DNA of 64,000 nucleotides from a virus, in the IMG/VR virus record IMGVR_UViG_3300042544_003310, positions 159,008 to 223,007 of that record; one strand, 5' to 3'. A model generated the notes under the pieces. The model was not told the origin of the DNA. It ran no database searches and saw only the letters and a list, made by a program, of their open reading frames with translations. The translations under genes and the position numbers were made by a program. Positions 18,214-57,038 of this stretch are shown here, piece after piece; position 1 is the stretch's first letter, and every line of letters starts with the position of its first letter.

Positions 18214-19041
18214 CTAGCCCAGCTGGCCCAGGCTGGTGACAAATCCCGGGCGCCCGGGCTGGTTGTGCAGGATGAACTCGCTTTGTCCTGCACGATCGGT
18301 TATCCAGATGATGCTGTTAACAGGTATGTCAGCTTGCAGGACTTTCTCAAGCTTGCGGTCTCTCTTTTGCAACAGCTCAGTGATCCAAGTTTGGTCTTCT
18401 CGGAACTGCTCCTCTAAATCGTCCCCATCAGTTATCATGTCACCATCGCTGTCAAAGATGTGATAATAATAAGGGTCTAGGTCAGGGTCATTGGTGGGCT
18501 CATCAGTGCGCACATATTGTTTCCCTCTCCAAGTGACTTTGCCCTTTTGGTTATACTCTTGCACTGCTTGTTGAATAGCCTGATCAGTTATGGGCTTGAC
18601 CTTCATGAGCCTGGGATCTACTCCTGCAAACCAAGCTGCAACGCGGGGGTCACTTGTCCAGCTGAGTGTGTGCCGGGGACCACCTTTGTCACCCACAGGG
18701 GTTTGAGCTCGATAGAGACGTATGGTGTCGCCAAACTTCCTCCGCAAGGCCGCTTGCACTGGCCTAAAACTCTGCTCCAGGCTGGCTCGGATCCGTTGGC
18801 CCCGCTCACTTGGCTGTGGGCTGTAGGCATCTTCCAGTTGAGCACTTTTCATGATTCCGCCCCACATGCCCTTGTTTTGGGCATCCGGTGGCACTCCTAC
18901 AAATCCCTCTAGGGCATCAGCAGCCTCTCCGGTCAAACTGTCATCAGCTTGGTCCACTAGATTTTTGATGCCCAACTGCTCAACGCTGATGTTGGAGAAG
19001 CTTTCCCGTAGGATCCGGGGATTGAGATCTGTTATACGCAT
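18214..19041 (-). CDS. Alt-like ADP-ribosyltransferase, predicted packaged protein
   Basis: A lone minus-strand gene among plus-strand genes. The 275-residue protein has the R-S-E pattern of arginine-type ADP-ribosyltransferases: IRLYRAQ (Arg111; T4 Alt has TLYRSQ), LSWTSD (127-131, the S-T-S equivalent), and GQSEFIL (QxE, Glu255). Such enzymes move ADP-ribose from NAD+ to proteins; T4 Alt is carried in the head and modifies host RNA polymerase. The N-terminus MRITDLNPRILRE followed by Ser matches a peptide shared with three other genes here, suggesting head packaging. The ATG at 19041 is preferred over an upstream in-frame start because that start crosses the oppositely oriented promoter at 19064. 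Catalysis and target are inferred. Confidence 0.72.
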   Translation of the reverse strand: MRITDLNPRILRESFSNISVEQLGIKNLVDQADDSLTGEAADALEGFVGVPPDAQNKGMWGGIMKSAQLEDAYSPQPSERGQRIRASLEQSFRPVQAALRRKFGDTIRLYRAQTPVGDKGGPRHTLSWTSDPRVAAWFAGVDPRLMKVKPITDQAIQQAVQEYNQKGKVTWRGKQYVRTDEPTNDPDLDPYYYHIFDSDGDMITDGDDLEEQFREDQTWITELLQKRDRKLEKVLQADIPVNSIIWITDRAGQSEFILHNQPGRPGFVTSLGQLG

Positions 19042-19045
19042 GGGA

Positions 19046-19051
19046 TATTTA
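19046..19051 (-). promoter_or_regulatory. Late promoter-like element before the ADP-ribosyltransferase
   Basis: Minus-strand TAAATA four bases before the ATG at 19041 (context GCGTAAATATCCC). Same motif as before gp25 and other late genes; the very short distance makes the promoter reading uncertain. Confidence 0.35.
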
Positions 19052-19063
19052 CGCAAAAAATGG

Positions 19064-19092
19064 TTGACAGGCCAGCCTCCTTGTGCTACATT
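19064..19092 (+). promoter_or_regulatory. Sigma-70 promoter
   Basis: TTGACA, 17 nt, TACATT with TGC in front. It faces away from the ADP-ribosyltransferase gene and drives the small gene at 19118. Confidence 0.75.
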
Positions 19093-19117
19093 CCTTACTG
19101 TAAACAAGGAGGCTGCT

Positions 19118-19312
19118 GTGAGCGATGAACCCCAACTGGATGGCATGATCCCACTTTCTGCCCTAGCAGATTTCCTCCGTGATCATCTCACCGTTGAGGT
19201 GGAGGTGTATGAGGAGAACTACAGCCAAGGCTACGTTACCACTGAGGTCACCATTAAGTTGGGTGACATTGTGATCACCAGGGGCTCGGACAACCACAAC
19301 TACACGCGCTAA
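19118..19312 (+). CDS. Hypothetical small protein (64 aa)
   Basis: Not recognised. It starts at GTG 19118, five bases after a strong AAGGAGG site. The protein is acidic, with a short helix (LSALADFLRDHL) followed by alternating residues typical of beta strands (VEVEVYEENYSQGYVTTEVT). The single gene is flanked by its own promoter and the next promoter. Confidence 0.65.
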   Translation: MSDEPQLDGMIPLSALADFLRDHLTVEVEVYEENYSQGYVTTEVTIKLGDIVITRGSDNHNYTR

Positions 19313-19337
19313 CAGGCGATTTTTTCAGAACAAATGG

Positions 19338-19366
19338 TTGACAGGGTGGTCAACCCATGCTAGTAT
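19338..19366 (+). promoter_or_regulatory. Sigma-70 promoter
   Basis: TTGACA, 17 nt, TAGTAT with TGC in front. It drives the genes at 19395 and 19602. Confidence 0.7.
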
Positions 19367-19394
19367 GCCTACATAAGCTAAAGGACGTAGAGAG

Positions 19395-19589
19395 ATGCAA
19401 GTTTCCGAGCTGATTGAACGGCTGCAAACCTTGAAGGAGCAGCACGGCGATGTTCCTGTGATGGTAGGCAATGACGATGGCGACGTATGGGATTGCATTA
19501 TTGCTACCCATTATGTAACAGAGCAAGATGAGTTTCCCAGCAACTGGAACATGCCAGAAGGCTTTGAGTTTATCAAGCTCAGCAACTGA
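19395..19589 (+). CDS. Hypothetical small protein (64 aa)
   Basis: 64 residues with an N-terminal helix (QVSELIERLQTLKEQHGDVP) followed by VMVGNDDGDVWD. This helix-then-strand arrangement, with a conserved D/N-rich turn, is common in small phage and bacterial proteins of unknown role. No catalytic motif is visible. It is followed 12 nt later by the gene at 19602. Confidence 0.65.
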   Translation: MQVSELIERLQTLKEQHGDVPVMVGNDDGDVWDCIIATHYVTEQDEFPSNWNMPEGFEFIKLSN

Positions 19590-19601
19590 AGGATCAAGAT
19601 C

Positions 19602-20030
19602 ATGGACATCACTGCATTTGGCAAGACCCAACCGCTGGAACAGCATCTTTGGGAGATTGCCAACACCCGGCGAGATGAGTTTCCCAAGGATGTGATCAAC
19701 CTCATGCTGGCAGCCTACTCTGTCATCGAAAGCCAAAAGATTTTCATCCAGCAAGGTGACGAGCGTGAGGCTCGGATAAACACCCAGCTCAATGCCAAGC
19801 TGGACCAACTGCTGAGTTGTGTGGATCAGCCTCGTTGGTTGGTGCAGGGCACGGTGAGCGTGAGCCACTACATGCAAGATGGGCGCGAGCAGAGAGTTGA
19901 GACCCTGGTGGTGCTGGCTGACACTGAGCAGGAAGCCTGTGACAAGTTTGTGGCTCATTGGGAGAGCAAGACCTCAGAATATGCCGTCTACTACACTGCC
20001 TGGGCTGACAAGGCCCATCAAACTGGTTGA
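19602..20030 (+). CDS. Hypothetical protein (142 aa)
   Basis: Not recognised. The first 75 residues are predominantly helical (MLAAYSVIESQKIFIQQGDE and NAKLDQLLSCVDQ); the last 60 look like a small alpha/beta domain (WLVQGTVSVSHYMQDG, ETLVVLADTEQEACDKFVAHW). AAGGATCAAGATC precedes the ATG. The TGA stop is embedded in the -35 hexamer of the next promoter. Confidence 0.7.
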   Translation: MDITAFGKTQPLEQHLWEIANTRRDEFPKDVINLMLAAYSVIESQKIFIQQGDEREARINTQLNAKLDQLLSCVDQPRWLVQGTVSVSHYMQDGREQRVETLVVLADTEQEACDKFVAHWESKTSEYAVYYTAWADKAHQTG

Positions 20031-20054
20031 CACTGACTAGAGTTATGCTACAGT
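20027..20054 (+). promoter_or_regulatory. Sigma-70 promoter
   Basis: TTGACA, 16 nt, TACAGT preceded by TGC. The -35 carries the stop of the gene at 19602. Confidence 0.8.
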
Positions 20055-20082
20055 GCCAGAGACAGAGTAAGGACCTTTGCCC

Positions 20083-20244
20083 ATGACAGTAATCCGAGAA
20101 ACATGCGAACTTTGTGAGCATAACAGGCTCTGCTATTGCAGATCATGTGATTTGAGTGGCGAGCCCAACCCAGAAGCTTTCACCAGAAATGAACTGGTAG
20201 AGGCACTAATCTCCTACTACAGGGCCCCAAGGACCGCTGAGTAA
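20083..20244 (+). CDS. Cysteine-rich putative zinc-binding small protein (53 aa)
   Basis: A 53-residue protein beginning MTVIRETCELCEHNRLCYC followed by RSC. The CxxC, CxC and CxxC spacing in residues 8-22 suggests a small zinc-binding knuckle. AAGGACC lies about 10 nt before the ATG. The stop overlaps the next start (TAATG), so translation is coupled to the gene at 20244. The function, perhaps nucleic acid or protein binding, is inference. Confidence 0.65.
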   Translation: MTVIRETCELCEHNRLCYCRSCDLSGEPNPEAFTRNELVEALISYYRAPRTAE

Positions 20245-20636
20245 TGAAACTTCTTCGATTCCGCGAGAAGCATGGCGATCGAGTTTTCCTTTTCAAAACC
20301 AAAGAGGAACTTCAGCTGATCCTAGCGCAGGTTGCACAGGAAAGGCTGGACGAAGGCTATTGGTATGACACTGAGAATGGCAGTGATCAGGTTGACAGGC
20401 TGTGGCCCATGCGGCATCTCAGTGATGCGGACAAGATCGCACTTCTGCTCAAGAGGCTGCACGACCCTTCTGCCCGGCCCAACACCAACCCTACCAGCTA
20501 TTATCTGCACCAGGTTGCGCAATGGATGCGAGCTCGCCGGGACTATGAGTATGAGGGCTGGGATGAACTGCCTGTCGAACAGTGTCAACTCACCCACTAC
20601 GAGGGCAGCGTGCGTCGCACCAGCTCTGCAACATAG
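20244..20636 (+). CDS. Hypothetical protein, paralogue of 21154
   Basis: 130 residues. Nearly co-linear with the product of 21154: both begin M-[KR]-L-[LI]-RFREKH, share LILAQVAQERL, then WYD-[TD]-ENGSDQVD, and end with YEYE-x-WDE. This pair therefore arose by duplication within the phage. The conserved N-terminal core looks like a small alpha/beta domain; no catalytic residues stand out and I do not recognise the family. Coupled to the cysteine-rich gene upstream. Confidence 0.75.
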   Translation: MKLLRFREKHGDRVFLFKTKEELQLILAQVAQERLDEGYWYDTENGSDQVDRLWPMRHLSDADKIALLLKRLHDPSARPNTNPTSYYLHQVAQWMRARRDYEYEGWDELPVEQCQLTHYEGSVRRTSSAT

Positions 20637-20647
20637 AGGTTGATATC

Positions 20648-20677
20648 ATGAAAACACTGGCTAGGTTTGGTGTTTGA
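20648..20677 (+). pseudogene. Remnant start of a paralogue of the 21577 gene
   Basis: The reading MKTLARFGV then stop matches the first residues of the 21577 protein (MRTLARFAI) and occupies the same place, directly after the RFREKH paralogue. This suggests that a two-gene cassette was duplicated and the second gene of this copy was lost. A chance match of nine residues is possible, but the position supports decay. Confidence 0.45.
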
Positions 20678-20835
20678 ATGGAGTGTGGACAAGAACAATG
20701 TGCTGTGGATCAGCCCAAACCAAACTCGCAAGCAAGCTTTTTTTTGATCAACATCAAGCGGAGATCCAGCGCCTCACTCGGGAGGCTATCCAATCCATCT
20801 CTGCCAAAATCATTGCGGTGAACAACAACCCATAA
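20670..20835 (+). pseudogene. Frameshifted small gene across an eight-T run
   Basis: From GTG 20670 a frame reads VFEWSVDKNNVLWISPNQTR and stops just after a run of eight T (20738-20745). In the neighbouring frame the sequence continues as FFDQHQAEIQRLTREAIQS and ends at 20835 before the next promoter. With seven T the two parts join into one protein of about 54 residues. This may be a recent mutation, an assembly or sequencing error in a homopolymer, or transcriptional slippage at the T run. Confidence 0.55.
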
Positions 20836-20841
20836 GAGTCG

Positions 20842-20869
20842 TTGACAATCGTCTGTGGTGTGCTACACT
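20842..20869 (+). promoter_or_regulatory. Sigma-70 promoter
   Basis: TTGACA, 16 nt, TACACT with TGC in front, upstream of the gene at 20899. Confidence 0.75.
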
Positions 20870-20898
20870 AGGCACAGGAAACAAATGGGAGACATGCT

Positions 20899-21126
20899 GT
20901 GAAGAAACGTGTTGTTGTCACTTTGGAACTGATTTACGACCATCCCGAGACTGTGACAGTGCGTGGCAAACAGGTGGCCTATCCCTTTGATGTAGGCTAT
21001 GTGTTGAGCGAGATCAAGGGCACGCTAGAATGCAGCGACTATGGTGTTTGGGGCCTGCAGAAGGTGAACGGCGGCTGTGTGAGTCACCTGCAACTTGTGC
21101 TAGCTGACGACATTGTTGACGAGTAA
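20899..21126 (+). CDS. Hypothetical small protein (75 aa)
   Basis: 75 residues starting at GTG 20899. The first half alternates like beta strands (KKRVVVTLELIYDHPETVTV); a helix (VGYVLSEIKGTL) follows. Not recognised. It is the first gene of a three-gene unit (20899, 21154, 21577) behind its own promoter. Confidence 0.65.
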   Translation: MKKRVVVTLELIYDHPETVTVRGKQVAYPFDVGYVLSEIKGTLECSDYGVWGLQKVNGGCVSHLQLVLADDIVDE

Positions 21127-21153
21127 TTCACTCATCACACAAGGAACCCTCTG

Positions 21154-21567
21154 ATGCGACTGATTCGATTCCGCGAGAAGCATGACGACCGTGTGTTTGT
21201 TTACTCCACAGGATTGGAGAAGCAGCTGATCCTTGCCCAAGTGGCACAGGAACGCTTGCAGGACGGCACTTGGTATGATGATGAGAATGGCAGCGATCAA
21301 GTTGATCTCCTCAAGCCCAAGACTCATCTCAGCGACGCGGAACGGATTGGCCAACTGCTGGAGAAGCTCTTTGATCCCAGCAACCGTAGCGATGCTAGCA
21401 AGGCATACAAGCTAGGTGAGCTCACTTATTATCTCGGCCTGGTCGAGCGTTGGATGGGTGGCCGCAGGCACTATGAATACGAGGATTGGGACGAGCGACC
21501 GGTTGACGCCCTAGAGCTCAAATGCCACCAAGGCAGTGTGCGCCGTAATACCAACCGGGAAGATTAG
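21154..21567 (+). CDS. Hypothetical protein, paralogue of 20244
   Basis: 137 residues. It shares with the 20244 product the RFREKH start, LILAQVAQERL, DENGSDQVD and the final YEYE-D-WDE. An insert of a few residues (SKAYKLGELTYYLG) makes it slightly longer. The function is unknown. Together with 21577 it is the intact version of the duplicated cassette whose other copy lies at 20244-20677. Confidence 0.75.
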   Translation: MRLIRFREKHDDRVFVYSTGLEKQLILAQVAQERLQDGTWYDDENGSDQVDLLKPKTHLSDAERIGQLLEKLFDPSNRSDASKAYKLGELTYYLGLVERWMGGRRHYEYEDWDERPVDALELKCHQGSVRRNTNRED

Positions 21568-21576
21568 GAAAACACC

Positions 21577-21897
21577 ATGCGAACTCTAGCCCGCTTTGCC
21601 ATCCGCCCTGCTGACAACCAGTATTCAAAGGGTGACCTTATCCTGGGCGCCATGTGTGAGGAACACGCCACCAACCTTCTCAAGCCCAACCATGTGTATG
21701 AGATCCGCGAGATTGATGGTGTGCTCACTATAGCGGACATGGGCGAGAGTGCCATGGGCATGTATCCTGTTGAAGCCCGGGTAGACAGTCCTCTGAGGGG
21801 GCAGGTATCGCGTGTGGGTTGGTTCAACGAGATAGGCCATTTGTTGAGCGTGGGCGATGGCCAGCACTTGGTGACCCGAGAGGAGATAGGCAGGTAG
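21577..21897 (+). CDS. Hypothetical protein (106 aa)
   Basis: 106 residues, beta-rich in appearance (NHVYEIREIDGVLTIADMGE), with a conserved-looking GDLILGAMCEEH turn. Not recognised. Nine bases follow the preceding stop, so it is in the same unit. A degraded copy of its start lies at 20648. Confidence 0.7.
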   Translation: MRTLARFAIRPADNQYSKGDLILGAMCEEHATNLLKPNHVYEIREIDGVLTIADMGESAMGMYPVEARVDSPLRGQVSRVGWFNEIGHLLSVGDGQHLVTREEIGR

Positions 21898-21915
21898 GCT
21901 GCGGGGAAAAACTGG

Positions 21916-21943
21916 TTGACAGCGCCCTGCATCGTGCTATAAT
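21916..21943 (+). promoter_or_regulatory. Sigma-70 promoter
   Basis: TTGACA, 16 nt, TATAAT with TGC: full consensus. It drives 21970. Confidence 0.92.
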
Positions 21944-21969
21944 GCGCACACAAGCAAGGAGCCGACCTT

Positions 21970-22524
21970 ATGAGCCGCGGAAAATATAGCCCTGCAACTC
22001 CTCGCAAGAACAGTGACGCACGCATGAAGCTCGACGCGGTCGAACAGTTCGATCGCAACGCCTATGGTGAGGTTCCCTCTCCCTACCAGGCAGGGGTTGA
22101 CCAATATGATGAGAAGATCCATTTCGTCAACTATGACGAGTGGGGCTACGACAGCTATGGCTACTCGGCCTGGCTTGAGGATGGCACGTTTGTTGGCCTT
22201 GGGCAAGGTGTAGACAGGCTGGGCTACACTGAGGATGACTACATCACCATGAGAGATGATGAGTGGGAGGATGTGTGCTGGAGCATTGATCCTGCGGTGT
22301 TCAAGCTTCCTTGCCCTGGTATCACACTCCGCCAAACTCCCCGGGCCATTCTCAGCCAGCTTGAAGGAGAGATTCAGCATATTTTGAACCGTGCTGAGGA
22401 TGAGATCAAAAAGGCAAAAGAAATAGGGTATCACACCGAACTGTTTCACCAGCAAGGTCGACAGAGTGCTGCCAACGAGCTGCTTAAGGTTGTGGTTCGC
22501 CTACAGAAAGAACAAAACGGTTGA
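21970..22524 (+). CDS. Hypothetical protein (184 aa)
   Basis: Not recognised. 184 residues with a basic N-terminus, a tyrosine/acid-rich middle (DEWGYDSYGYSAWLEDGTF), and a helical C-terminal third (LSQLEGEIQHILNRAEDEIK, about residues 130-150) that could form a short coiled coil. AAGGAGCC precedes the ATG. It is the single gene between two consensus promoters; its TGA lies in the next -35 hexamer. Confidence 0.75.
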   Translation: MSRGKYSPATPRKNSDARMKLDAVEQFDRNAYGEVPSPYQAGVDQYDEKIHFVNYDEWGYDSYGYSAWLEDGTFVGLGQGVDRLGYTEDDYITMRDDEWEDVCWSIDPAVFKLPCPGITLRQTPRAILSQLEGEIQHILNRAEDEIKKAKEIGYHTELFHQQGRQSAANELLKVVVRLQKEQNG

Positions 22525-22548
22525 CAGCCCCTTGAGCTGTGCTATAAT
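22521..22548 (+). promoter_or_regulatory. Sigma-70 promoter
   Basis: TTGACA, 16 nt, TATAAT with TGC. The -35 contains the stop of the 21970 gene. Confidence 0.92.
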
Positions 22549-22575
22549 GGGCATATAGAGACAGGAGCACGGGAC

Positions 22576-22989
22576 ATGAGCAAGAAACTGGAAGTAGGCG
22601 ACGTGTTTGAGGCCTGCAAGAACATGAGTGTTTATGCCAAAATCCCCAGCCACTTTGCCTATGTCAACCGGCCCAACGATCCCACTCCTGCAAAAACTGA
22701 GGTGCGAGTGGGATGCCTCATGTGGCGAGACGATCATGCACTGGATCTCGGCTACCTCAAGGGTCGCTATGTGGTGGAGCATGCTCGGAGTGAGGGCGGC
22801 GGCACTGGTCACGGACCCCATGACATTTACCCCGACGGTTGGCACATCCGGGCTCGCAAGCTGAACGTAGATGGCAGCTACAATGCCACTGGTGTAGAGA
22901 TCGAGTTCTACCAGAGCGGTGCGTTCACTGTGGTGAACAAGGATGTGCCCGTGGTAGGCAAGCTGCACCGGATTTTTGTGGCTGAATAG
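22576..22989 (+). CDS. Hypothetical protein (137 aa)
   Basis: 137 residues beginning MSKKLEVGDVFEACKNMSVY, with a glycine/histidine-rich loop (ARSEGGGTGHGPHDIYPDGW, about residues 71-90) and a beta-like C-terminus. The VGDVFE start and strand-rich profile fit a small barrel fold, but no family is recognised. AGGAGC upstream. It stands alone behind its own promoter. Confidence 0.75.
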   Translation: MSKKLEVGDVFEACKNMSVYAKIPSHFAYVNRPNDPTPAKTEVRVGCLMWRDDHALDLGYLKGRYVVEHARSEGGGTGHGPHDIYPDGWHIRARKLNVDGSYNATGVEIEFYQSGAFTVVNKDVPVVGKLHRIFVAE

Positions 22990-23001
22990 ACAAAAAAGCG
23001 G

Positions 23002-23029
23002 TTGACAGCAGGCCAAACCCTGCTATAAT
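23002..23029 (+). promoter_or_regulatory. Sigma-70 promoter
   Basis: TTGACA, 16 nt, TATAAT with TGC: full consensus. It drives 23058 and the genes after it. Confidence 0.92.
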
Positions 23030-23057
23030 GGGCACACAGAGAGAGGAAGCAACACCA

Positions 23058-23312
23058 ATGTTCAAGTTCGAGCTGGACCAGACTGTCTACTATCTCATGG
23101 ACAACCGGGTGTGCAGTGCTCCGGTGTTGTGCCGCATGCTGGTGGAGAATCAGCATCCCAAGTGGAATGCCACCGACAAGCAGGCGGAGTTTTTCCAGCG
23201 TTTTGGTCCCTGCCGTGTGGTGTATGCCACCTGCCATGGAGAGCATGAAGAAGCCATGCTGTTTGAGAGCCGCGAGGCACTGGCTGCTGCCATCATTGCG
23301 GAACAGATCTAA
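23058..23312 (+). CDS. Hypothetical small protein (84 aa)
   Basis: 84 residues from the ATG at 23058 (AGAGGAAGC upstream); an in-frame ATG at 23028 overlaps the -10 box and is rejected. The N-terminal MFKFELDQTVYYLMDNRV looks like the start of a small SH3-like barrel, a pattern seen in many phage proteins. The stop overlaps the next ATG (TAATG). Confidence 0.7.
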   Translation: MFKFELDQTVYYLMDNRVCSAPVLCRMLVENQHPKWNATDKQAEFFQRFGPCRVVYATCHGEHEEAMLFESREALAAAIIAEQI

Positions 23313-23551
23313 TGACTGCTGAAGGAAAAGTGCTGTATCAGCGGAATACAATGGGCTATTGGATCTTGCGACATCCATCAGGGTTGTATCCTGTTGATAC
23401 AACACAGGGTTTTTGGAGTAATCATAGGGTGGCAGCCATGAGATTCCACACAAAAGAGGAAGCTGATGCCTGTGCTGCCTATCTCTCCACGAGTGTTATA
23501 AGCGGGATCAAATGTAACATGCTCTTGGTGGAGATGTTGTTTCAGATGTAA
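23312..23551 (+). CDS. Hypothetical small protein (79 aa)
   Basis: 79 residues coupled to the previous gene. The sequence GYWILRHPSGLYPV followed by FHTKEEADACAAYL suggests a strand-turn-strand-helix unit. Not recognised. Confidence 0.6.
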   Translation: MTAEGKVLYQRNTMGYWILRHPSGLYPVDTTQGFWSNHRVAAMRFHTKEEADACAAYLSTSVISGIKCNMLLVEMLFQM

Positions 23552-23591
23552 ACAACGCTTTTGGTATCAATATCTAACCCACGGGGTAATT

Positions 23592-24068
23592 ATGAACGGC
23601 GCCGGACATGCAGACTACTGTAACATACGAATCAGTCGAGAAGGGCTAGCACGCGGCAAGCTCGAGCTAGTGCATCGATATGTAATCTACTTTGCACGAC
23701 AGTATGTGACTGATTATCTTACAGGAACTGTAAGCGGAGCACATCTCAAGATTGGCCAAAGCACTTTGTTCAATTCGCTGCAACGTGGCCGAAACCAAGC
23801 GGGTGGTGATTTTAGAATTCTAGCTGAGCTGTGTTTTCAATCAGCTGATGCTGCCAAACAGGCAGAAAAATATGCTCATTATCTTTTCATGAACGATCAG
23901 GTACGCGGTCCGCAAAATCAGCAAGAATTGTTCAACATCCCTGATCAAGATGTTGAAACCCGTGCAAAGGCGCTGATTGCCTATTGCACCACCAACAATG
24001 ATCATCCGTTGCCTTTTGTTGAGGCCCTGTTGTTTACAGGCGGACAAGAAACCGTGGATATTATCTGA
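23592..24068 (+). CDS. T5orf172/MUG113-like GIY-YIG family protein
   Basis: 158 residues. HLKIGQSTLFNSLQRGRNQ (about residues 51-69) followed by GGDFRILAELCF, an ADAAKQAEKYAHYLF helix and RGPQNQQELFNI matches the layout of T5orf172/MUG113 domains (KIG motif, Arg, conserved Glu helix), a branch of the GIY-YIG nuclease fold. Nuclease activity is not certain for this branch. The gene follows 23312 after 40 nt and precedes the small gene at 24076. Confidence 0.65.
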   Translation: MNGAGHADYCNIRISREGLARGKLELVHRYVIYFARQYVTDYLTGTVSGAHLKIGQSTLFNSLQRGRNQAGGDFRILAELCFQSADAAKQAEKYAHYLFMNDQVRGPQNQQELFNIPDQDVETRAKALIAYCTTNNDHPLPFVEALLFTGGQETVDII

Positions 24069-24075
24069 GGCAGAC

Positions 24076-24342
24076 ATGAGCAAAAATCCCACTTCCAACC
24101 AAATCATCTCTTGGGTCAAAGCCGAAGCGCAAGCTCGCCTAGACAATGCTGGTTATTCTGGACGTTATGATGATGGTGGATACGGCGCTCTGCTGCGTGA
24201 GGTAGAGGCTTATCAAGCCGGCCAGGCCGGCACAGTGCCAGGCTCTTGGGAACCCATCATTGAGAAACATGTTCGGCAGCAGGATGCTGAGTATCAAGAG
24301 TATCTCAGGCTAGCCAACAAGTTTGGTCCACCAAAAAATTAA
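24076..24342 (+). CDS. Hypothetical small protein (88 aa)
   Basis: 88 residues from the ATG at 24076, with GAGGCAGAC upstream. Helical ends flank a Gly/Tyr-rich centre (YSGRYDDGGYGALLREVEAY). Not recognised. Confidence 0.6.
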   Translation: MSKNPTSNQIISWVKAEAQARLDNAGYSGRYDDGGYGALLREVEAYQAGQAGTVPGSWEPIIEKHVRQQDAEYQEYLRLANKFGPPKN

Positions 24343-24345
24343 GGC

Positions 24346-24373
24346 TAGACATAAAACAGCATCCTGCTATAAT
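24346..24373 (+). promoter_or_regulatory. Sigma-70 promoter
   Basis: TAGACA, 16 nt, TATAAT with TGC. It drives 24401. Confidence 0.82.
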
Positions 24374-24400
24374 GCCCACATAGAGAAAAGGAACCCAGCC

Positions 24401-25075: not shown

Positions 25076-25106
25076 AGCAGCACACGTTGATCTACTGAAA
25101 AAGTCC

Positions 25107-25135
25107 TAGACACAACTCAGCAACCTTGCTATAGT
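25107..25135 (+). promoter_or_regulatory. Sigma-70 promoter
   Basis: TAGACA, 17 nt, TATAGT with TGC. It drives the 25164/27154 pair. Confidence 0.75.
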
Positions 25136-25163
25136 CACACAACAGTTGAAAGAAACACACCCT

Positions 25164-27140: not shown

Positions 27141-27153
27141 AAGGACACCCAAC

Positions 27154-27558: not shown

Positions 27559-27564
27559 TTGCTC

Positions 27565-27597
27565 AAGTGAGGGGTGTGACCGTGCCCCTCACTTTTT
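27565..27597 (+). terminator. Rho-independent terminator
   Basis: Stem AAGTGAGGGG (27565-27574), 10-nt loop, and CCCCTCACTT (27585-27594), running into TTTCTC. The 10-bp perfect stem plus T tract is the clearest intrinsic terminator in the window. It separates the 25164 unit from the next promoter. Confidence 0.92.
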
Positions 27598-27600
27598 CTC

Positions 27601-27628
27601 TTGACTCAGTCTATGTCTGTGCTACTAT
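27601..27628 (+). promoter_or_regulatory. Sigma-70 promoter
   Basis: TTGACT, 16 nt, TACTAT with TGC. It begins immediately after the terminator and drives 27656-29363. Confidence 0.75.
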
Positions 27629-27655
27629 GCCTATTGACACGCAAGAGGTGAGAAC

Positions 27656-28351: not shown

Positions 28352-28354
28352 ACC

Positions 28355-29159: not shown

Positions 29160-29171
29160 AGGATAGAGTAG

Positions 29172-38296: not shown

Positions 38297-38302
38297 TAAA
38301 TA
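38297..38302 (+). promoter_or_regulatory. Late promoter-like element before the ParB-fold gene
   Basis: TAAATA, 24 nt before GTG 38327, immediately after the second hairpin. It suggests late expression, unlike the neighbouring early genes. Confidence 0.45.
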
Positions 38303-38326: not shown

Positions 38327-38728
38327 GTGAGAGCAAGTGATTTTTTGTCGCCAAAAATTCAGTTAACTGAAAGCATAACTGGTAGCGAAATGCTGACTCT
38401 CTACAAAAGCATGCATCACGAAGAGCCCACTAATCCTGCTATGGTCAACTGGATCAAAAGTCAAGACTGGGGCATAAAAATGATCAACCCGCAAGACTTT
38501 CCAGATCACTATGGTGATGTGCTGCCAGATGATCCTTTTAATCGGGTAATTGATATTGACGATGAGATTGTGAAAAAGCTAACCATCAAACTAGAGCGTG
38601 GAGAGCAAGTGGACCCTGTGATTATGGGACCAAATGGCAGTGTTGTTGACGGCAACCACCGAGCGCAAGCTGCCAAGGAGGCTAGTGTAAGCATCTTGGC
38701 ATATGTTCCCATGGGGCAAACTGTTTGA
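38327..38728 (+). CDS. ParB/sulfiredoxin-fold protein, predicted packaged protein
   Basis: 133 residues from GTG 38327, preceded by AAAGGATGGG. The C-terminal half VDPVIMGPNGSVVDGNHRAQ followed by AAKEA has the ParB-like nuclease-domain motif (strand, then V-D-G-x-H-R). This fold serves in partition CTPases, kinases and nucleases; activity here is unknown. The N-terminus MRASDFLSPKIQLTE then Ser fits the tag shared by the ADP-ribosyltransferase, the nucleotidyltransferase and the ligase fusion. The stop is in the next -35 hexamer. Confidence 0.75.
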   Translation: MRASDFLSPKIQLTESITGSEMLTLYKSMHHEEPTNPAMVNWIKSQDWGIKMINPQDFPDHYGDVLPDDPFNRVIDIDDEIVKKLTIKLERGEQVDPVIMGPNGSVVDGNHRAQAAKEASVSILAYVPMGQTV

Positions 38729-45460: not shown

Positions 45461-45464
45461 CATA

Positions 45465-46329: not shown

Positions 46330-46335
46330 AGTGTT

Positions 46336-50333: not shown

Positions 50334-50348
50334 TTATAGCTTCTCAAA

Positions 50349-52658
50349 TTATTGATTTATACCTGTTCTCAAAACTGCCGGTACAGTACCAAACTCTGTT
50401 CGCGAGTCGCCCAAATTACTCAAAAGGTCACGGGTTGCTTCACATCGTTGGGTAAATTTCCCGTCTCTGAATATGTGTGTTACTTGCACCATCATATAGA
50501 GAGCATTGAAAAAATCAACATCATCACGCAAGTCCATAAACCCTGTGTTTTCGTCAGGAATAGTTCCTGCCCGGAAAGCCAACATAAAAAATGCATCGTA
50601 AGGTTGGTAAACGGCGTATTCATCTATATAGACTGGAACTCCTGACTGTTGACCAAAATATGTCTGTTGTATATAACTTCTCAACTGTCTATCTCTTTCT
50701 ATATTTGAAGCCCCTAACCAGTAAGGATCACCACGTATCTCCATTGTGATATTCACCATATCTTGCATGCGAGCATAAATTTGTTGTGTTACACTGGCAT
50801 AAACTTTACGAACATCCGTATCAGTAGCAGTCTGAGGCCTTAGTTGATTTATAATATCTCTAGTATCTTGGATGTAGGTAAGCTGAGCAGGCAATGTCCT
50901 ATTATTACTACTAAATTCGTCCTCACTAAATTCAACACGTCTTCGCCTTGTTCGTGCAGCATCCCGCTCTCTTTGGAGCTGCTCCCGTAAGCCGGTTACT
51001 GGAGATTGATCTTGACCAAAACGTCCATATGCGTCTTCTAATGTCTGAGCCACATTTGGGTCAAATACTACTAACGACCCTTGAGCTAAGGCACGGCGCG
51101 CTGCCTCATCTTCTTGTTCTATTTCTCGTAAACGACGCTCACCAGCAGCAATTTGAGTGTCTAATACAACAGCATCAGACGCCTGTGCGCCAGCCCTAAG
51201 CCTCCGCAATCTAAGTAACTCTTGTTGAGTTTGATCGTATTCTTGAAGCGCAGTCTGTCTACGAGCTAAGGCGCTTTGTAAGTCGCCTAGAGAAGTACGC
51301 AGTGCACTAAATGCACTTGGCAAAACTGTTTCATTTGTCATAGGCAAAGGTATCCAATGCAGTGCATTGAATTGAACATCAAGATTTATAATCTCTGTGT
51401 TGTTTCCTGTGTAAAAATACAAATAAGCCTTTTTCAGTAGCTTAACAGTCCCAGTATTAATACTTGCTAATCTAGCATCGTGAAATTCGTTTACAAGTTG
51501 GAAAGCTCGGCCAAATTCTTGGCTAGCTATAGCTCTGCGGGTCTGTTTAACTCCAATATAAAATTGGAATTGCCTTATATAATCATTTCTTATGTAGTCC
51601 CACCCAATGTTTTTTACTACACACTCAATCCAAGGAACTTTTATGATACCTGACCTATCATCTGGTATAAAAAATGTAATGTCTTGAATTGATGCACAGA
51701 CGTCATCTACTAACGCACCAATGCTTATGCCTTTACCAGCAATAAATTGAACTTTGTCTCCTACTTGCCTAAAACTAGCACGCCGGTTGTTGATTTGTGG
51801 GCTAAACTGGATTTTTTGATTTCTCAATGCCTCCTCAATGAAAAATTGATAAATTACAACCTGTGTTTGTTGATCTTGTGGCCGTTGACTACTTCTTAAA
51901 TCAATATAAAACTGATTTAGTTCATCTTCCAATTTTCCAAAAAATTCACCAACTGTTTTATCAAAGTCTATAATATTTTGCCCAGGCAGTACCCCTCCTG
52001 GATCAGAAATGCCTATCCTTCCACTTCCTAGTTCAATAGTATAAGTTTGTGGTAAAAGATAGAATGAGTTTTTGAATGCCATATTATTATTAACAGCGGC
52101 TTTCATTCTATAAATGGTTCCTGCAGCCGTAAGTGTATTCGACAAATCAACTATATTAAGTTTGTAGACTTTAAAAAACTTTCTTTGGGCATTGGCAACT
52201 ATATTTCCGTCAGCATCGTAATAGTTGAACCATAACATCAAAAATATAGGAGCTAATCGCCAATTAAGGTTACCTAGTTGCTTGCTGCTTTCAAAAATTT
52301 TGTCAGGTAAGCTCATATTATACGGTTCTGCAATCACCATGTCTACTTCTACTGAGGTTGCATTTTTAGTACGAAAATTATGGCTTACAGCATCTTTTAT
52401 TTCACATTCTATTATATTGAACCCAGCCGTAACTCCACTTTCAGCCACAACAACATATCTAACCTCATTTAGGTACAATTTTTCATCAATATCATCTTCA
52501 TCAGCTTCTCTATCATTTACCAAAACTAATTGTAAATGATATGTGTATCTGTCATGAGAATTTAGCATATTATCTTCTGGGCTGAAATTTAGGCCTTTAA
52601 GAGCGAGCTCACTTAAAATGCGTCGAAGATAATGATTAGTCACAAGTGGGGTAGCCAT
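50349..52658 (-). CDS. Baseplate hub protein (gp27-type position)
   Basis: 769 residues, between the spike gene and gp53. The C-terminus FFNALYMMVQVTHIFRDGKF followed by TQRCEATRD resembles the end of hub proteins of T4-like phages (a V-x-H-x-F-x-x-G-x-F-x-Q motif). An insertion at about residues 465-590 is rich in Arg, Gln and Glu and likely a coiled coil (QQELLRLRRLRAGAQ; GERRLREIEQEDEAARRALA). Much longer than T4 gp27 (391 aa). The stop is 16 nt from the spike start. Confidence 0.75.
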   Translation of the reverse strand: MATPLVTNHYLRRILSELALKGLNFSPEDNMLNSHDRYTYHLQLVLVNDREADEDDIDEKLYLNEVRYVVVAESGVTAGFNIIECEIKDAVSHNFRTKNATSVEVDMVIAEPYNMSLPDKIFESSKQLGNLNWRLAPIFLMLWFNYYDADGNIVANAQRKFFKVYKLNIVDLSNTLTAAGTIYRMKAAVNNNMAFKNSFYLLPQTYTIELGSGRIGISDPGGVLPGQNIIDFDKTVGEFFGKLEDELNQFYIDLRSSQRPQDQQTQVVIYQFFIEEALRNQKIQFSPQINNRRASFRQVGDKVQFIAGKGISIGALVDDVCASIQDITFFIPDDRSGIIKVPWIECVVKNIGWDYIRNDYIRQFQFYIGVKQTRRAIASQEFGRAFQLVNEFHDARLASINTGTVKLLKKAYLYFYTGNNTEIINLDVQFNALHWIPLPMTNETVLPSAFSALRTSLGDLQSALARRQTALQEYDQTQQELLRLRRLRAGAQASDAVVLDTQIAAGERRLREIEQEDEAARRALAQGSLVVFDPNVAQTLEDAYGRFGQDQSPVTGLREQLQRERDAARTRRRRVEFSEDEFSSNNRTLPAQLTYIQDTRDIINQLRPQTATDTDVRKVYASVTQQIYARMQDMVNITMEIRGDPYWLGASNIERDRQLRSYIQQTYFGQQSGVPVYIDEYAVYQPYDAFFMLAFRAGTIPDENTGFMDLRDDVDFFNALYMMVQVTHIFRDGKFTQRCEATRDLLSNLGDSRTEFGTVPAVLRTGINQ
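50354..50361 (-). promoter_or_regulatory. Late promoter-like element before the gp5-like gene
   Basis: Minus-strand TATAAATC about 20 nt upstream of the ATG at 50333, overlapping the end of the hub gene. Seven of eight bases match the T4 late element. Confidence 0.6.
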
Positions 52659-52957
52659 TACAAACTACTTTCTATACTAAGCTGGTTAGGTGCATAAATT
52701 GTTATCCCAGGAACGAAATCATAAATTGGATCCACAATTTGATCAGGATTTAGGATAGCAAACGCCCACCATGCCCGGGGATTCTGATATAGTTCAAAAC
52801 TCAATAAGTCAGGCCGATGTAGATGCCGTTGTGCCAAAGTAACAATTAGATCGTCAGTTGTTCTTGTGAGCAATGGAGGTCGCCAAAAATCCAGATATGT
52901 AGTGTTTTGTGGAGTACGATAGTAAGGACTACTGCGTAGATAAGTTACTGTTGTCAT
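52658..52957 (-). CDS. 53: Baseplate wedge protein gp53-like
   Basis: 99 residues. TYLDFWRPP, DDLIVTLAQRHLHRPDLLSF, ELYQNPRAWWAFAILNPDQI, then DPIYDFVPGITIYAP follow the gp53 family (RPDLL, Y-x-x-x-x-L/W-W-x-F-A-x-x-N-x-D, DPI-x-DF). T4 gp53 is about 196 residues, so this is a short form. It overlaps both neighbours by a base or more, so the hub operon is tightly coupled. Confidence 0.85.
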   Translation of the reverse strand: MTTVTYLRSSPYYRTPQNTTYLDFWRPPLLTRTTDDLIVTLAQRHLHRPDLLSFELYQNPRAWWAFAILNPDQIVDPIYDFVPGITIYAPNQLSIESSL

Positions 52958-53916
52958 TAGATGAAATCACTTTGACTTGGGTCACCATTGATGTATTTGG
53001 GCAACTCGAATCTCTTCCGCAATGTGGTAGGAGTGTGTTGCACAATCAATGTTACTGAAATTTTAAACAAGCTGGGTAACCAAACACCTTTTGTAGCTGA
53101 CGGTGTTTGTTGTTGAACACTGGCTCCAGGAGGATTGTTCAATGGATCGTCCCAATTCCGGTTTGCAGGCTGGGTAACACCAGGCAAACCTTGCAACGCT
53201 AGGCCAGGTTCGCCAGCATCTTCAAGCTGTTGTGGCGACCTAATTATTGGTGTGGGTCGCACTGTAGGTTGATTAGTAGCAGGCAGCCCACTAGCCACTT
53301 GAACATAGTCTACATCATCTGGAAATCCAATACTATAGCTCTTGACTATGACTGGCAAGTTGTTGAACACAAAGGGACCGTAGGCATTGAACAAGAGAAT
53401 AGGAGGAGGTGTGCCTGCATCTTTGTCATTTTCACCAAAATGCATCTTGCTCATGGTTCTCAAAAAGTGTATGCATGCCAAGGCATAGCGTCCTTCTTTT
53501 TGATTTTGAACAGTGAATTGACCATCCACACTGAATGAAGTTGCAGGAGTACGTGCAAATATATGAAAGTCTTGGTTTGTATGTACAGTGCTAATGGTTT
53601 GATAATCAATGTCTTGTTGATAGTTGATTGTAGGTGTGTAGGGCCAAACCATGCCATTGTTTGTTTCTCGCAAAGGATCCAATAATCCCTTGCCCAACAC
53701 GCGATTAGCAGCAGCTGGTCTGGGCCGCAGGCTTACACGTCGGTTAGTGGGATCTTGATTGTTGAGTGTTCCCAACAAATTCACACCATCTCCAATTCCA
53801 AAACCGCCAAACACCCCGCGTGGAAAAATAGCAGAGGCAGCCGACCCCACAACGTTGTTTACAAGTCCACCAACCAAAGAACCAGTGTTAACACCAAAAC
53901 CACCAAATCTAGGCAT
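52957..53916 (-). CDS. gp48-like baseplate tail-tube cap protein
   Basis: 319 residues. GMVWPYTPTINYQQDIDYQT (about residues 88-107), HTNQDFHIFAR, ALACIHFLRTMSKMHFGEND, GTPPPILLFNAYG and PDDVDYVQV match the tail-tube/tube-initiator proteins gp48/gp54 of T4-like phages (WPYTP, HTN, FLR-x-x-x-KM-x-FG). The N-terminal 45 residues are glycine- and phenylalanine-rich. First gene of the hub operon. GAGGAAAG precedes the ATG. Confidence 0.8.
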   Translation of the reverse strand: MPRFGGFGVNTGSLVGGLVNNVVGSAASAIFPRGVFGGFGIGDGVNLLGTLNNQDPTNRRVSLRPRPAAANRVLGKGLLDPLRETNNGMVWPYTPTINYQQDIDYQTISTVHTNQDFHIFARTPATSFSVDGQFTVQNQKEGRYALACIHFLRTMSKMHFGENDKDAGTPPPILLFNAYGPFVFNNLPVIVKSYSIGFPDDVDYVQVASGLPATNQPTVRPTPIIRSPQQLEDAGEPGLALQGLPGVTQPANRNWDDPLNNPPGASVQQQTPSATKGVWLPSLFKISVTLIVQHTPTTLRKRFELPKYINGDPSQSDFI

Positions 53917-53946
53917 GCAATTCTTTCCTCAAAAATATTAGCCAAA

Positions 53947-53953
53947 TATTTAT
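53947..53953 (-). promoter_or_regulatory. Late promoter-like element for the hub operon
   Basis: Minus-strand ATAAATA about 30 nt upstream of the tube-cap ATG, with a separate ribosome site between. It shares the 72-nt divergent gap with the plus-strand element at 53976. Confidence 0.6.
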
Positions 53954-53975
53954 GTGCTGGAAACCAGCTGGAATC

Positions 53976-53981
53976 TAAATA
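53976..53981 (+). promoter_or_regulatory. Late promoter-like element before the nucleotidyltransferase
   Basis: TAAATA (context TCTAAATACTAG), seven bases before the ATG at 53989; no Shine-Dalgarno sequence is present. Confidence 0.5.
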
Positions 53982-53988
53982 CTAGATC

Positions 53989-54822
53989 ATGAAACAGTTT
54001 GAACTCTCCCCACAATTAGTTTTTGAAGGCGGCAACGTATTCAAAACCTCAGATGGCTATCCACGCACCACTCGTATCCCACTGGCTTTGATCAGTCCCA
54101 CGTTGGATTGGCTGGAAAAAATCACAGGGCTGCCTATGCATGGCATGACCTTGGGCAGTGTTGGCAAAAAAGCCAGCAGTGGGGATATCGACATTGTAGT
54201 CGACAGCAAGAAAATGTCAAAAGCCCAATTTGCCCAAAGTCTCCAAAACTGGGTGTTGAGCCAAGGTTTGAACCCCAAAGAGTATGTGAAGCCTGCTGGA
54301 GAAGTTCATCTGTTGACACCAATTGCAGGTGATCCCAAGAATGGCTTCGTGCAAACTGACTTTTTCTTCCATGATGATCCTCAATGGATGAAATTCAGCA
54401 TGCAGAGTCCAGGAGACGCCAGCAACTACACTGGTGCAGAAAGAAATCAACTCATGAGCAGTATTGCCAAAGCATTGGGAATGAAATACAGTTGGCAACG
54501 TGGACTGTTGAATCGGGAAGATGAATCTGTTATCTCCACTGATCCTGATGTGATTGCACAAAAGCTATTGGGGCCCAGATTCACTCACGACAGCTTCCAA
54601 AGTGTTGAAACTATTCAACGAGCCATCAAAGGCAATAGGGCTATTCATCAAGGGTTGACTGAGTTGATTCAAACTCTAAGGAGCTTGGATAAATTAGGGC
54701 CCACTGGCAAACCCACAATGGATGTGAAAACTGGGAAGTTTAAGCAGAAATCTCCCAGTGAGCAACGCAAATCAGAAGAAGAAGCTGCAAGGATTGAGCA
54801 GTTGACAGGTGTAGCTGTTTAG
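53989..54822 (+). CDS. Pol-beta-type nucleotidyltransferase, predicted packaged protein
   Basis: 277 residues. MTLGSVGKKASSGDIDIVVD (about residues 53-72) is the G-S ... D-x-D nucleotidyltransferase motif; GFVQTDFFFHDD supplies the likely third acidic residue. This superfamily includes tRNA CCA-adding enzymes and poly(A) polymerases; the substrate here is unknown. The N-terminus MKQFELSPQLVFE then Gly fits the shared packaged-protein tag. The end is basic and helical (KQKSPSEQRKSEEEAARIEQ). Its 3' end overlaps the ligase fusion's by 4 nt, tail to tail. Confidence 0.82.
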   Translation: MKQFELSPQLVFEGGNVFKTSDGYPRTTRIPLALISPTLDWLEKITGLPMHGMTLGSVGKKASSGDIDIVVDSKKMSKAQFAQSLQNWVLSQGLNPKEYVKPAGEVHLLTPIAGDPKNGFVQTDFFFHDDPQWMKFSMQSPGDASNYTGAERNQLMSSIAKALGMKYSWQRGLLNREDESVISTDPDVIAQKLLGPRFTHDSFQSVETIQRAIKGNRAIHQGLTELIQTLRSLDKLGPTGKPTMDVKTGKFKQKSPSEQRKSEEEAARIEQLTGVAV

Positions 54823-57038
54823 CTTTTGTTTCCGTATCGGGGATCAATTGGCTTGACATGAATCTGATCAAACAGCAGAGGAAAGTTGGGCAAAACTTTT
54901 GGTAGGTCTGTTCTCTCCAACCAATTGTAATTTACGCTGCTGTGTGGAATGAAGTTGGGGAAATCGTGAGTTCCGCCCTTGCTCTTCAAATGATGATGAA
55001 ATTTGTGTGCCAGGTCACAATCTAGGTCTAGGCACAGGGCTTTGTCGCCCATTTTGGTCCAACCTTTTATTTGTGCTGGCACAACCACAGTGTTACCATG
55101 CATGCTCATGAGGTGAGGCACTGGTTTTTGGCTATACAAAACAGTCATGTGAAGATCATCAGTATTCATACAGGGAACACCTTGACTTTCACACCATTCT
55201 TTGAGCTCTCGAGCATTTTTGGGACTCATGCTCAAAACAACTATGGTGCCAGCAGCGTGCTCATGAGCTTCCATTACTGTGTTCCTAGGGTGCTTGAGAT
55301 AGCGTCGAACTGATTGGAACAGCCTATTGGAAAGTTCATCATCCAAACCCACAGCTTGGTGGAAAGCCTTTTTGTCTTTGTTCAAAACAGCCTCACGTGC
55401 CTTGGTGCCGCTTATTCCACTAACGCCAATGCCATCTGGATGCCGTTCTCCAGCTGATACAATTTCAATCGTCACTGGTTGACGTTGATGTTTTTCACGT
55501 ATTTCTGGACTGTTCCAAGAGTCAAAAAGGTCTTTCATGCCCTGCACACGATCTTCGCCGGCAACAAATACAAAATGTCTATAGCCTTTGTTGTAGAGCC
55601 ATTCTGCGGCTTGCAGCGGAGTTTTGATGCTCTCATCCTGCACCACATGATCTTGGTGTTGAGACATAATCTCTTGGAAAAACTCCAGCTTTTCCGCCCA
55701 AGGCAATGGATTCTTTTTTCCGTCTTGACTGTGACTCAAAAAGATCCAATAGTCACCCTTGCCAGCGTGTTTGGCCATTGTGTTAACCAAGTGCTGATGA
55801 CCACGAGTGGGAGGATTCATCCTCCCAAAGGTCCAAACTACCCGGTTGTGTTCTTGTTCCATCAATGAATCAGGCTCGCCTTTTCTCATAAATTGGGCAC
55901 GATTTACAAACTTCACTATTCCAGTGGGAGTTACAGCCACAAATCCCTCATGTCCTGGATCTCCACCCAAACTAGCACCCACTGTCCCATCTGTTTGACG
56001 GTCCATTTGTTTCTTGAGATCCAGCTTCAAACTTGTTAACAAACTTACTATCCGCCACACGCTATTGTAACCATGGATGTGGCTTTGAATCCATTTCAAA
56101 CACTTGGCCTGCATTGCAGGGCTAGCAGTACTGTTGAGCCCTGTAAGCCACTCCAAAAACTCTCTACTCACATGGCTAAATGTGGAACTACCACGTTCTG
56201 CCTTTTTGGCCAAAAAGCTTTTCATCAAGCCAGGAAGGCTCAAGATTTCATGACTGGCTAGTTGTCCTCTGTCCAAAAATGATTTCACACTTACAGCATG
56301 CACTCTAAACAAGTGGGATAATTTGTCAACTAAGTTTTTATCCAGGTTCAAACTTTTGAGCATGGTGGCTTCATGAGGTAGGATAGCCAGTCCTTGATCA
56401 GTGCGAAAGCCATATTGACTAATGTTTCGCAAGGCTTCTGGTTCCTGATCTTCAGGGCTTTGATAAACACTGTGCATGACCACGCCAGCACTGCTGTTGG
56501 CAATCATTTCACCATATTGACTGTTGACAGGCACACGATAAGTTATTTTGTTGGGTGTAAATTCATATGCCCCATCTACAATGGGAGGTACACCAGTCCA
56601 CAACAAATCCGCTTGAACGTAACCGATAAATCCTTTTGGGGTAACTTTTTTCAACAATGGGTAGAGACTGGCTATTTTGTTGGCATATGCCAGTCGAGCA
56701 CTCTTTGCACTGGGGCTGGTGTCTTTCATTTTCCTGCTCATGAGCATATTGACAATATCCTCAGGGCTTGTGGTTAAACCATTGTATTTTTTACTGCTGA
56801 ATCCAGCTTTGTCTGTTAACACAAATTTATAGTCTTTCCATCCAGAAATCAAGGCTGGTGTTCCATCCATTTTTATACTAACATACTCGGGTTGATGAGC
56901 AGTTGTGCTCAGTATATGAAAAGCTCTTTTGGCACCATCTAACCCCTCATCGAAGATCATGTCTTCTGGATGCTCGATACGGGCTTTGGCCTCAGTCAAA
57001 GAGAGATTTACTACTGGTAATAAGTCAAACAGCTTCAT
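54819..57038 (-). CDS. Three-domain ligase-like / TxGH nucleotidyltransferase / 2H phosphoesterase, predicted packaged
   Basis: 739 residues with three recognisable parts. (1) About 40-385: ATP-dependent ligase-like adenylyltransferase, with KMDG (56-59, motif I), FIGYVQADLLW (137-147, motif III), EGFV (364-367, IV) and VKFV (375-378, V). (2) About 398-560: HIGH-superfamily nucleotidyltransferase like NMN adenylyltransferase or CoaD, with FGRMNPPTRGH (404-414) and ISGTKAR (542-548). (3) About 595-710: 2H phosphoesterase with HMT (630-632) and HSS (699-701), which can open 2',3'-cyclic phosphates. The N-terminus MKLFDLLPVVNLSLTE then Ala fits the packaged tag. The ligase-phosphoesterase order recalls the eukaryotic tRNA ligase Trl1. 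Domain calls are strong; joint function is inferred. Confidence 0.8.
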   Translation of the reverse strand: MKLFDLLPVVNLSLTEAKARIEHPEDMIFDEGLDGAKRAFHILSTTAHQPEYVSIKMDGTPALISGWKDYKFVLTDKAGFSSKKYNGLTTSPEDIVNMLMSRKMKDTSPSAKSARLAYANKIASLYPLLKKVTPKGFIGYVQADLLWTGVPPIVDGAYEFTPNKITYRVPVNSQYGEMIANSSAGVVMHSVYQSPEDQEPEALRNISQYGFRTDQGLAILPHEATMLKSLNLDKNLVDKLSHLFRVHAVSVKSFLDRGQLASHEILSLPGLMKSFLAKKAERGSSTFSHVSREFLEWLTGLNSTASPAMQAKCLKWIQSHIHGYNSVWRIVSLLTSLKLDLKKQMDRQTDGTVGASLGGDPGHEGFVAVTPTGIVKFVNRAQFMRKGEPDSLMEQEHNRVVWTFGRMNPPTRGHQHLVNTMAKHAGKGDYWIFLSHSQDGKKNPLPWAEKLEFFQEIMSQHQDHVVQDESIKTPLQAAEWLYNKGYRHFVFVAGEDRVQGMKDLFDSWNSPEIREKHQRQPVTIEIVSAGERHPDGIGVSGISGTKAREAVLNKDKKAFHQAVGLDDELSNRLFQSVRRYLKHPRNTVMEAHEHAAGTIVVLSMSPKNARELKEWCESQGVPCMNTDDLHMTVLYSQKPVPHLMSMHGNTVVVPAQIKGWTKMGDKALCLDLDCDLAHKFHHHLKSKGGTHDFPNFIPHSSVNYNWLERTDLPKVLPNFPLLFDQIHVKPIDPRYGNKS

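Follow-up and report, generated by a model that had tools for sequence, protein, structure and literature searches.

A probable capsid-targeting propeptide shared by unrelated enzymes of a large T4-related phage

Four unrelated proteins encoded in a 64,000-nucleotide window of viral DNA (bases 159008-223007 of the 223,007-base record IMGVR_UViG_3300042544_003310, here G000) begin with a similar short peptide, referred to below as the tag. The carriers are an ADP-ribosyltransferase (ART)-like protein, a 133-aa protein, a nucleotidyltransferase and a 739-aa fusion protein. The tag has the clade-specific form M[KR]xx[DE][L/F]...[LIV]xE and is very likely a T4-type capsid-targeting propeptide, by which these proteins would be packaged into the head, cleaved and injected with the DNA. 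Head packaging had been proposed in an initial annotation of the window, and the proposal gains support from further tagged proteins in the genome, a gp21-type prohead protease with matching sites, clade-specific tags on homologues and the virion gene cluster of Agrobacterium phage Atu_ph07.

Record G000 is a fragment, and a search of it for the protease and capsid genes found neither. The head genes were therefore taken from the near-identical record IMGVR_UViG_3300044972_002389 (G001, 328,603 bases). The ART-like, 133-aa and fusion proteins are 100% identical between the two records.

Occurrence of the tag

The four N-termini described in the initial annotation are present in the sequence as MRITDLNPRILRE/S, MRASDFLSPKIQLTE/S (from a GTG start), MKQFELSPQLVFE/G and MKLFDLLPVVNLSLTE/A, where the slash marks the predicted cut. 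In all four an L or F follows D/E at position 6, a shift of one residue relative to positions 4 and 7, which serve targeting in T4; positions 3 and 4 are variable. A strict pattern designed on these seeds, ^M[KR]..[DEQHNS][LFIM]...[LIVMF].E[ASGN], found 8 matches when the whole phage was scanned (425 open reading frames, 805 candidate starts). The chance expectation is 0.37 when estimated from internal windows and 0.39-0.64 when N-termini are shuffled or permuted by column, and 500 shuffling runs gave at most 4 matches. Because the pattern was built on the four seeds, the four non-seed matches provide the fair test; the Poisson probability of at least four such matches against 0.37 expected is about 6e-4. 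With the strict motif it also holds that no other gene in the window has this start.

The additional matches lie outside the window, at G000:64709-65287 (192 aa, MKIQDLTQPLNE/S), G000:66774-70502 (1242 aa, MKLVDILE/N), G000:73380-74495 (371 aa, MRIYHLVPLKKLLE/A) and G001:308138-308470 (110 aa, MRAHEFLNE/A). Two of these proteins are multi-domain. A 963-aa protein encoded between 66774 and 73380 starts with MKLNDLLNK, which fits the pattern loosely. The tags are kept in 80%-identical relatives. The 192-, 1242-, 963- and 371-aa proteins form a block (G000:64709-75497) in which three GNATs occur along with a deaminase, DUF5661 and ART-like modules. The block lies upstream of the DNA polymerase gene and of a gene for 331 aa that has a late element. 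Elsewhere outside the window (G000:32654-41438), consecutive proteins of ~450 aa each have starts related to one another.

Prohead protease and predicted cleavage sites

The phage encodes a Peptidase_S77 (gp21-type) prohead protease (G001:237839-238264, E 3e-23) and a gp23 capsid protein (G001:239817-240761, E 7e-96). The capsid propeptide reads MKGNLFE/ANWNLTRDALCE/GLTGNRKKVMEVVLE/NTKRDLSSKAGILFE/NATPG, and that of phage RaK2 reads MSNKLLTE/SQWAATKERITE/GLKGSRKRVMDITMDNYRRERALFE/SATAG. Three sites match between the two phages, NLFE/A with LLTE/S, LCE/G with ITE/G and ILFE/N with ALFE/S, and the last of them directly precedes the region that aligns with mature T4 gp23. The scaffold contains 18 [LIVM]xE/[ASGNQTD] sites where 2.4 are expected (p = 1e-10), and the protease has a VVTE/A site near its own start. 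Thus the search for a prohead protease and its sites that had been proposed as a check returned a gp21-type enzyme with LxE/[ASGN] in the capsid propeptide, the scaffold and the protease itself. The tags end in the same type of site, [LIV]xE/[ASGN], that recurs in these three head proteins. We infer both the cleavage positions and the protease consensus from such sequence comparisons; the background of protease-type sites is about 0.6 per 100 residues.

Outside the window, the region G001:305058-308075 encodes proteins of 240 and 656 aa that are unusually rich in LxE, with 7 and 16 sites. They share a gene cluster with the tagged 110-aa protein and are candidate core proteins.

Late expression

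The sequence TAAATA is expected in 0.75% of 70-nucleotide upstream stretches and precedes 13% of the genes, many of them structural. Among the tagged genes 6 of 8 have it upstream, compared to 51 of 417 others (p = 1e-4). As had been noted, it precedes all four tagged genes of the window: 4 nucleotides before the ART start (19043..19048, minus strand), 24 before the start at 38327 (38297..38302, plus strand), 7 before that at 53989 (53976..53981, plus strand) and 39 before the fusion gene (57078..57083, minus strand). The divergent neighbor of the fusion gene encodes a gp55-type late sigma factor homologue (57174..57923, plus strand; 45% identity to RaK2 gp55, E 4.9e-45). Both features expected of late (gp55-type) genes are present, the upstream TAAATA and an encoded gp55 homologue. 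A homing endonuclease gene (phrog_3339; 58001-59722, minus strand) lies between the gp55 homologue gene and recombination endonuclease-like genes.

Tags in other phages

Homologues of these proteins carry tags in clade-specific dialects, and some, on ADP-ribosyltransferase, DUF6267 and NMNAT proteins, are T4-like. Phage Melnitz (Kyanoviridae) has LINFSKYITE/D on its DUF6267 protein and MKKFSEIIE/A on its NMNAT protein. In Rhizobium phage RHph_I1_18 the ART homologue starts with MISFKSHLNE/S and an adjacent kinase-like protein with LKSFSEHIAE/S. The tags of both phages are close to MKTYQEFIAE/A of T4. Further dialects occur in Salicola phage SCTP-2 (MKIHNLTE/D) and in two uncultured huge phages, with forms such as MKLHRYNSFINE/S and MKKLHRYNSFIKE/S. 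The 642-kb uncultured phage LR756502 has four consecutive genes with similar starts (L160:243-3005); two of the four start with YNSFI[NK]E/S as in T4, and one is ART-like (LYRG).

The most extensive case is phage Atu_ph07, where ten tandem ART-like genes, gp53-gp62, have starts of the form M[KR]W[EHDQ]QL[TNI]E (gp54-gp62) or MKWNDLNE (gp53). In the first 50 kb of this genome the strict pattern gives 9 matches, 8 of them in the ART array, while 0.11 are expected. The ten paralogues (MF403008:39484-49507; YRGM/YRGI) have near-identical tags, and gp53 also has a zeta-toxin-like kinase domain. The array falls within coding sequences (CDS) 31-76, numbered by CDS count with gp70 as primase/helicase, for which 29 virion proteins were found by mass spectrometry (PMC6102473). 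The record of phage PA5oct flags genes detected by electrospray ionization tandem mass spectrometry (ESI-MS/MS). Two of the flagged proteins have tag-like starts: EST35_0238 (VKIKDILVE/S), a weak homologue of the 110-aa protein at 308138, and EST35_0349 (MHLFELFDQIE/K), which corresponds to one module in the 371-aa protein.

Cargo proteins of the window

The ART-like protein (274 aa; 18214..19038, minus strand) is homologous to proteins of RHph_I1_18 and phiM9. The program-made open reading frame (18214-19146, minus strand) opens 36 codons upstream of the tag; the tagged methionine at 19038 is very likely the true start, because the relative L139, 98% identical, lacks an ATG upstream of it. 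The tag MRITDLNPRILRE covers 19000..19038 on the minus strand, with a predicted cut before Ser14. An R-S-E pattern can be recognized by eye in R (LYRAQ), SWTS and QSE; Pfam, PHROG and PDB sequence searches gave no match, and a single-sequence fold model was poor.

The gene at 38327..38728 (plus strand) has a GTG start and encodes the 133-aa protein. Family searches gave no match, and its ParB fold is a label of the initial annotation only. The tag MRASDFLSPKIQLTE covers 38327..38371 (plus strand), with a predicted cut before Ser16 at the sole site of this type in the protein. A 93%-identical relative retains the tag as ...IQLNE/S.

The nucleotidyltransferase (277 aa; 53989..54822, plus strand) is polymerase-beta/Pol X-like according to Foldseek and a conserved motif. 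Its tag MKQFELSPQLVFE covers 53989..54027 (plus strand) and would be cut before GGNVF; in the structural model residues 1-14 are disordered and the fold begins directly after the tag. The motif LGSVGK..SGDIDI is kept in relatives, with G56, S57, D66 and D68 invariant. The best Foldseek matches are Pol lambda, Pol mu and Pol X (E 6e-4, TM 0.4-0.46), so that the Pol beta-like assignment combines a GS...D-x-D motif with a distant fold match. Glu13 was considered as a mere part of the fold, as it is invariant wherever residues precede it, but this was ruled out: the nucleotidyltransferases of Atu_ph07, PA5oct and Phosso have their initiator methionine there, so the fold does not need Glu13.

In many phage contigs the nucleotidyltransferase is fused to DUF6267. 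The protein at 53989 and the converging fusion protein are therefore halves of what elsewhere is one protein, each tagged here. The pairing of a polymerase-like with a ligase-like protein suggests DNA-end repair on entry. Of the fold names given initially, nucleotidyltransferase stands for the gene at 53989 (Pol beta-like), and ligase fusion was accurate in part, the protein being composed of DUF6267, CTP_transf_like and Acb1. A cargo limited to ADP-ribosylation and repair is likewise too narrow, given the anti-CBASS Acb1 and NMNAT-like domains and, outside the window, the GNATs and the deaminase. PADLOC gave no match.

The 739-residue fusion protein

Domain searches divide the 739-aa protein (54819..57038, minus strand) into three parts: DUF6267, which contains a ligase-like KMDG, spans residues 21-384, a cytidylyltransferase/NMNAT-like domain spans about 396-586, and Acb1 spans 597-733. 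The Acb1-like 2H phosphodiesterase domain (54840..55250, minus strand) matches Pfam PF23474 above its cut-off (E 1.2e-18) and PDB 7t26 (E 1e-8); its HMT and HSS align in sequence with 7t26, in agreement with the two H-x-[TS] motifs in the 2H fold of Acb1. The protein contains exactly three protease-type sites. These are at residue 16, the end of the tag MKLFDLLPVVNLSLTE (56991..57038, minus strand; predicted cut before Ala17), at Glu394 of SLME/Q in the DUF6267/NMNAT linker (55857..55859, minus strand) and at Glu590 of TVME/A (KVME/S in relatives) in the NMNAT/Acb1 linker (55269..55271, minus strand). The chance that all three fall in linkers is about 2e-4. Relatives with 82-83% identity retain the three sites (SLTE/A, SLME/Q, KVME/S or KIME/S) with altered flanking residues. 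With sites at the end of the tag and in both inter-domain linkers and nowhere else, the protein looks like a packaged polyprotein, a feature that we consider new.

Tags and linkers also correspond among homologues. The junction [LIV]xE/[AG] before DUF6267 is found in 17 of 17 distinct sequences (related, not independent), with a tag, the nucleotidyltransferase or another domain as the upstream partner. One module opens its own open reading frame in relative L155 as MRLIDLFE/AVKIDNV; in the 963-aa protein it lies in the interior, following ALLIELFALLNE/VKIDNV. In the Melnitz NMNAT protein the C-terminal domain follows SLIE/S, and it is this domain that the tagged 192-aa protein matches. The 1242-aa protein is less clean, having sites in linkers and also within domains. 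It is possible, though we propose it only tentatively, that four proteins, DUF6267-NMNAT-Acb1 and those of 1242, 963 and 371 aa, are polyproteins with one tag each that the protease splits at inter-domain sites. The virion would then deliver separate enzymes, including a ready-made anti-CBASS phosphodiesterase, before phage gene expression, and fusion of tagged genes would have left old tags behind as linker sites.

Discussion

The tag, protease and late-expression data suggest the following sequence of events. The tagged genes would be transcribed late, after which the tag would dock each protein onto the scaffold core of the prohead. The prohead protease could then cut after the tag glutamate while it dismantles the core, and the freed enzymes would remain inside the head until they are delivered, along with the DNA, to the next host. 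Multi-domain cargo may, less surely, be split at its linkers into separate enzymes. The cargo would comprise the ART, the Pol X-like nucleotidyltransferase, the ligase-like DUF6267, the NMNAT-like domain and the Acb1 cyclic-nucleotide phosphodiesterase and, outside the window, the large GNAT/deaminase proteins.

Other explanations for the shared N-terminus can be considered. The tag could be a packaging signal that stays in place permanently, with the glutamate and the inter-domain LxE being incidental. T4 targeting indeed tolerates an uncut tag, as Asp at position 10 blocks processing and not targeting (PMC9026906), and sites of this type occur at the background frequency given above in any case. 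We nevertheless consider it unlikely, because the three sites of the fusion protein all lie in linkers and survive changes of their flanks in relatives, and all 17 DUF6267 junctions retain [LIV]xE/[AG] across differing upstream partners. A signal for another step of structural assembly, which docks proteins outside the head, at the neck, the tail or a late assembly site without any injection, would produce the same late elements and the same clustering with virion genes. The tag-like starts in PA5oct fit such a role, as they include the scaffold and a 73-aa protein beside the portal gene. This is quite improbable in view of the protease site at the tag end, which matters inside the prohead, the cargo domains, which are enzymes of types directed at targets or signals of the host, and the T4-like tags of homologues, a proven head-interior signal in T4 (PMC9026906).

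That the N-termini are alike by chance, or through composition bias at translation starts, seems very improbable. The motif is short and was chosen once the sequences had been inspected, LxE is a common tripeptide and K/R at position 2 is common as well (118 of 805 starts). However, permuted or shuffled N-termini gave 0.4-0.6 matches and never more than 4 in 500 runs, compared to 8 in the phage, and chance leaves both the independent Atu_ph07 array and the correspondence of tags to linkers unexplained.

Several observations weigh against a packaged, cleaved and injected cargo. The motif was defined after the seeds had been seen. The virion mass spectrometry comes from phages other than this uncultured one (PA5oct, Atu_ph07), and for Atu_ph07 it applies to the cluster as a whole. 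In PA5oct the tag is mildly enriched among detected proteins when all genes are taken (p = 0.02-0.06, weak), the list includes metabolic enzymes that are likely contaminants, and the nucleotidyltransferase homologue EST35_0231 is tagless yet flagged. The nucleotidyltransferases of Atu_ph07, PA5oct and Phosso start with M-GG or M-SG and have no tag, nor do the DUF6267 and NMNAT proteins of Syn1, and the strict pattern has no match in RaK2 1-140 kb. The phiM9 ART homologue has no clean tag. Homologues without the N-terminal segment in phages with the same protease had been named initially as evidence that would speak against packaging; some are indeed tagless, while others carry the clade-specific tags described above. 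Because tagless homologues occur in phages whose protease is of the same type (assumed from T4-like kinship for Atu_ph07, Phosso and Syn1), not all members of these families have the tag, and their packaging may be optional or follow another route.

If the tag is a capsid-targeting propeptide, the proteins that large T4-related phages inject could be identified from the N-terminal signature and the protease site of each phage, although these phages are mostly uncultured, and the question which phage proteins enter the cell would become directly testable by mass spectrometry. The counter-defense protein Acb1 and the NAD/ADP-ribose enzymes would act before phage gene expression, and the cargo would include an enzyme of the kind that turns off a bacterial alarm system. 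It would also suggest that phages use the prohead protease for splitting packaged polyproteins. Acb1 as previously known is a small stand-alone protein that is produced after infection. A literature search, which was incomplete, found no account of a clade-specific tag across scattered effectors in this phage group or of polyproteins that are packaged and have protease sites where domains meet.

In T4, ten residues of IPIII suffice as capsid-targeting sequence (CTS), positions 4 and 7 serving targeting and 8 and 10 cutting, and T4-like phages have been suggested to take up various proteins by means of a CTS (PMC9026906). The tag resembles the CTS of IPI-IPIII and the Alt propeptide in being a short N-terminal peptide common to unrelated proteins, with an acidic-hydrophobic core (E-F in T4, D/E-L/F here) and a gp21-type site at its end; gp21 and gp23 homologues are present, and an ART is among the cargo. 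It differs in that the consensus is shifted by one residue, often with longer spacing before the glutamate, and in a cargo that includes multi-enzyme proteins, Acb1, NMNAT and a Pol X-like nucleotidyltransferase, with packaging and injection predicted here from sequence. Packaged ARTs and polyvalent proteins of jumbo phages were predicted from head-protein fusions and gene neighborhood (PMC9503650, PMC7824862). These likewise have ART, GNAT and other effector domains in large proteins thought to be packaged and injected; here, there is an explicit N-terminal tag with protease-type linker sites, and the genes are scattered far from the head module. The head proteins of SPN3US and phiKZ (PMC5694885) are also jumbo phage head cargo cut after Glu by a gp21-family protease, but their N-terminal propeptides are mostly longer than 100 residues, and the site is AxE or SxE, in contrast to 8-16 residues and [LIV]xE here. 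The Acb1 domain belongs to the same family as the protein of PDB 7t26, with aligned 2H motifs, and differs from it in forming the C-terminal part of a tagged and probably packaged protein.

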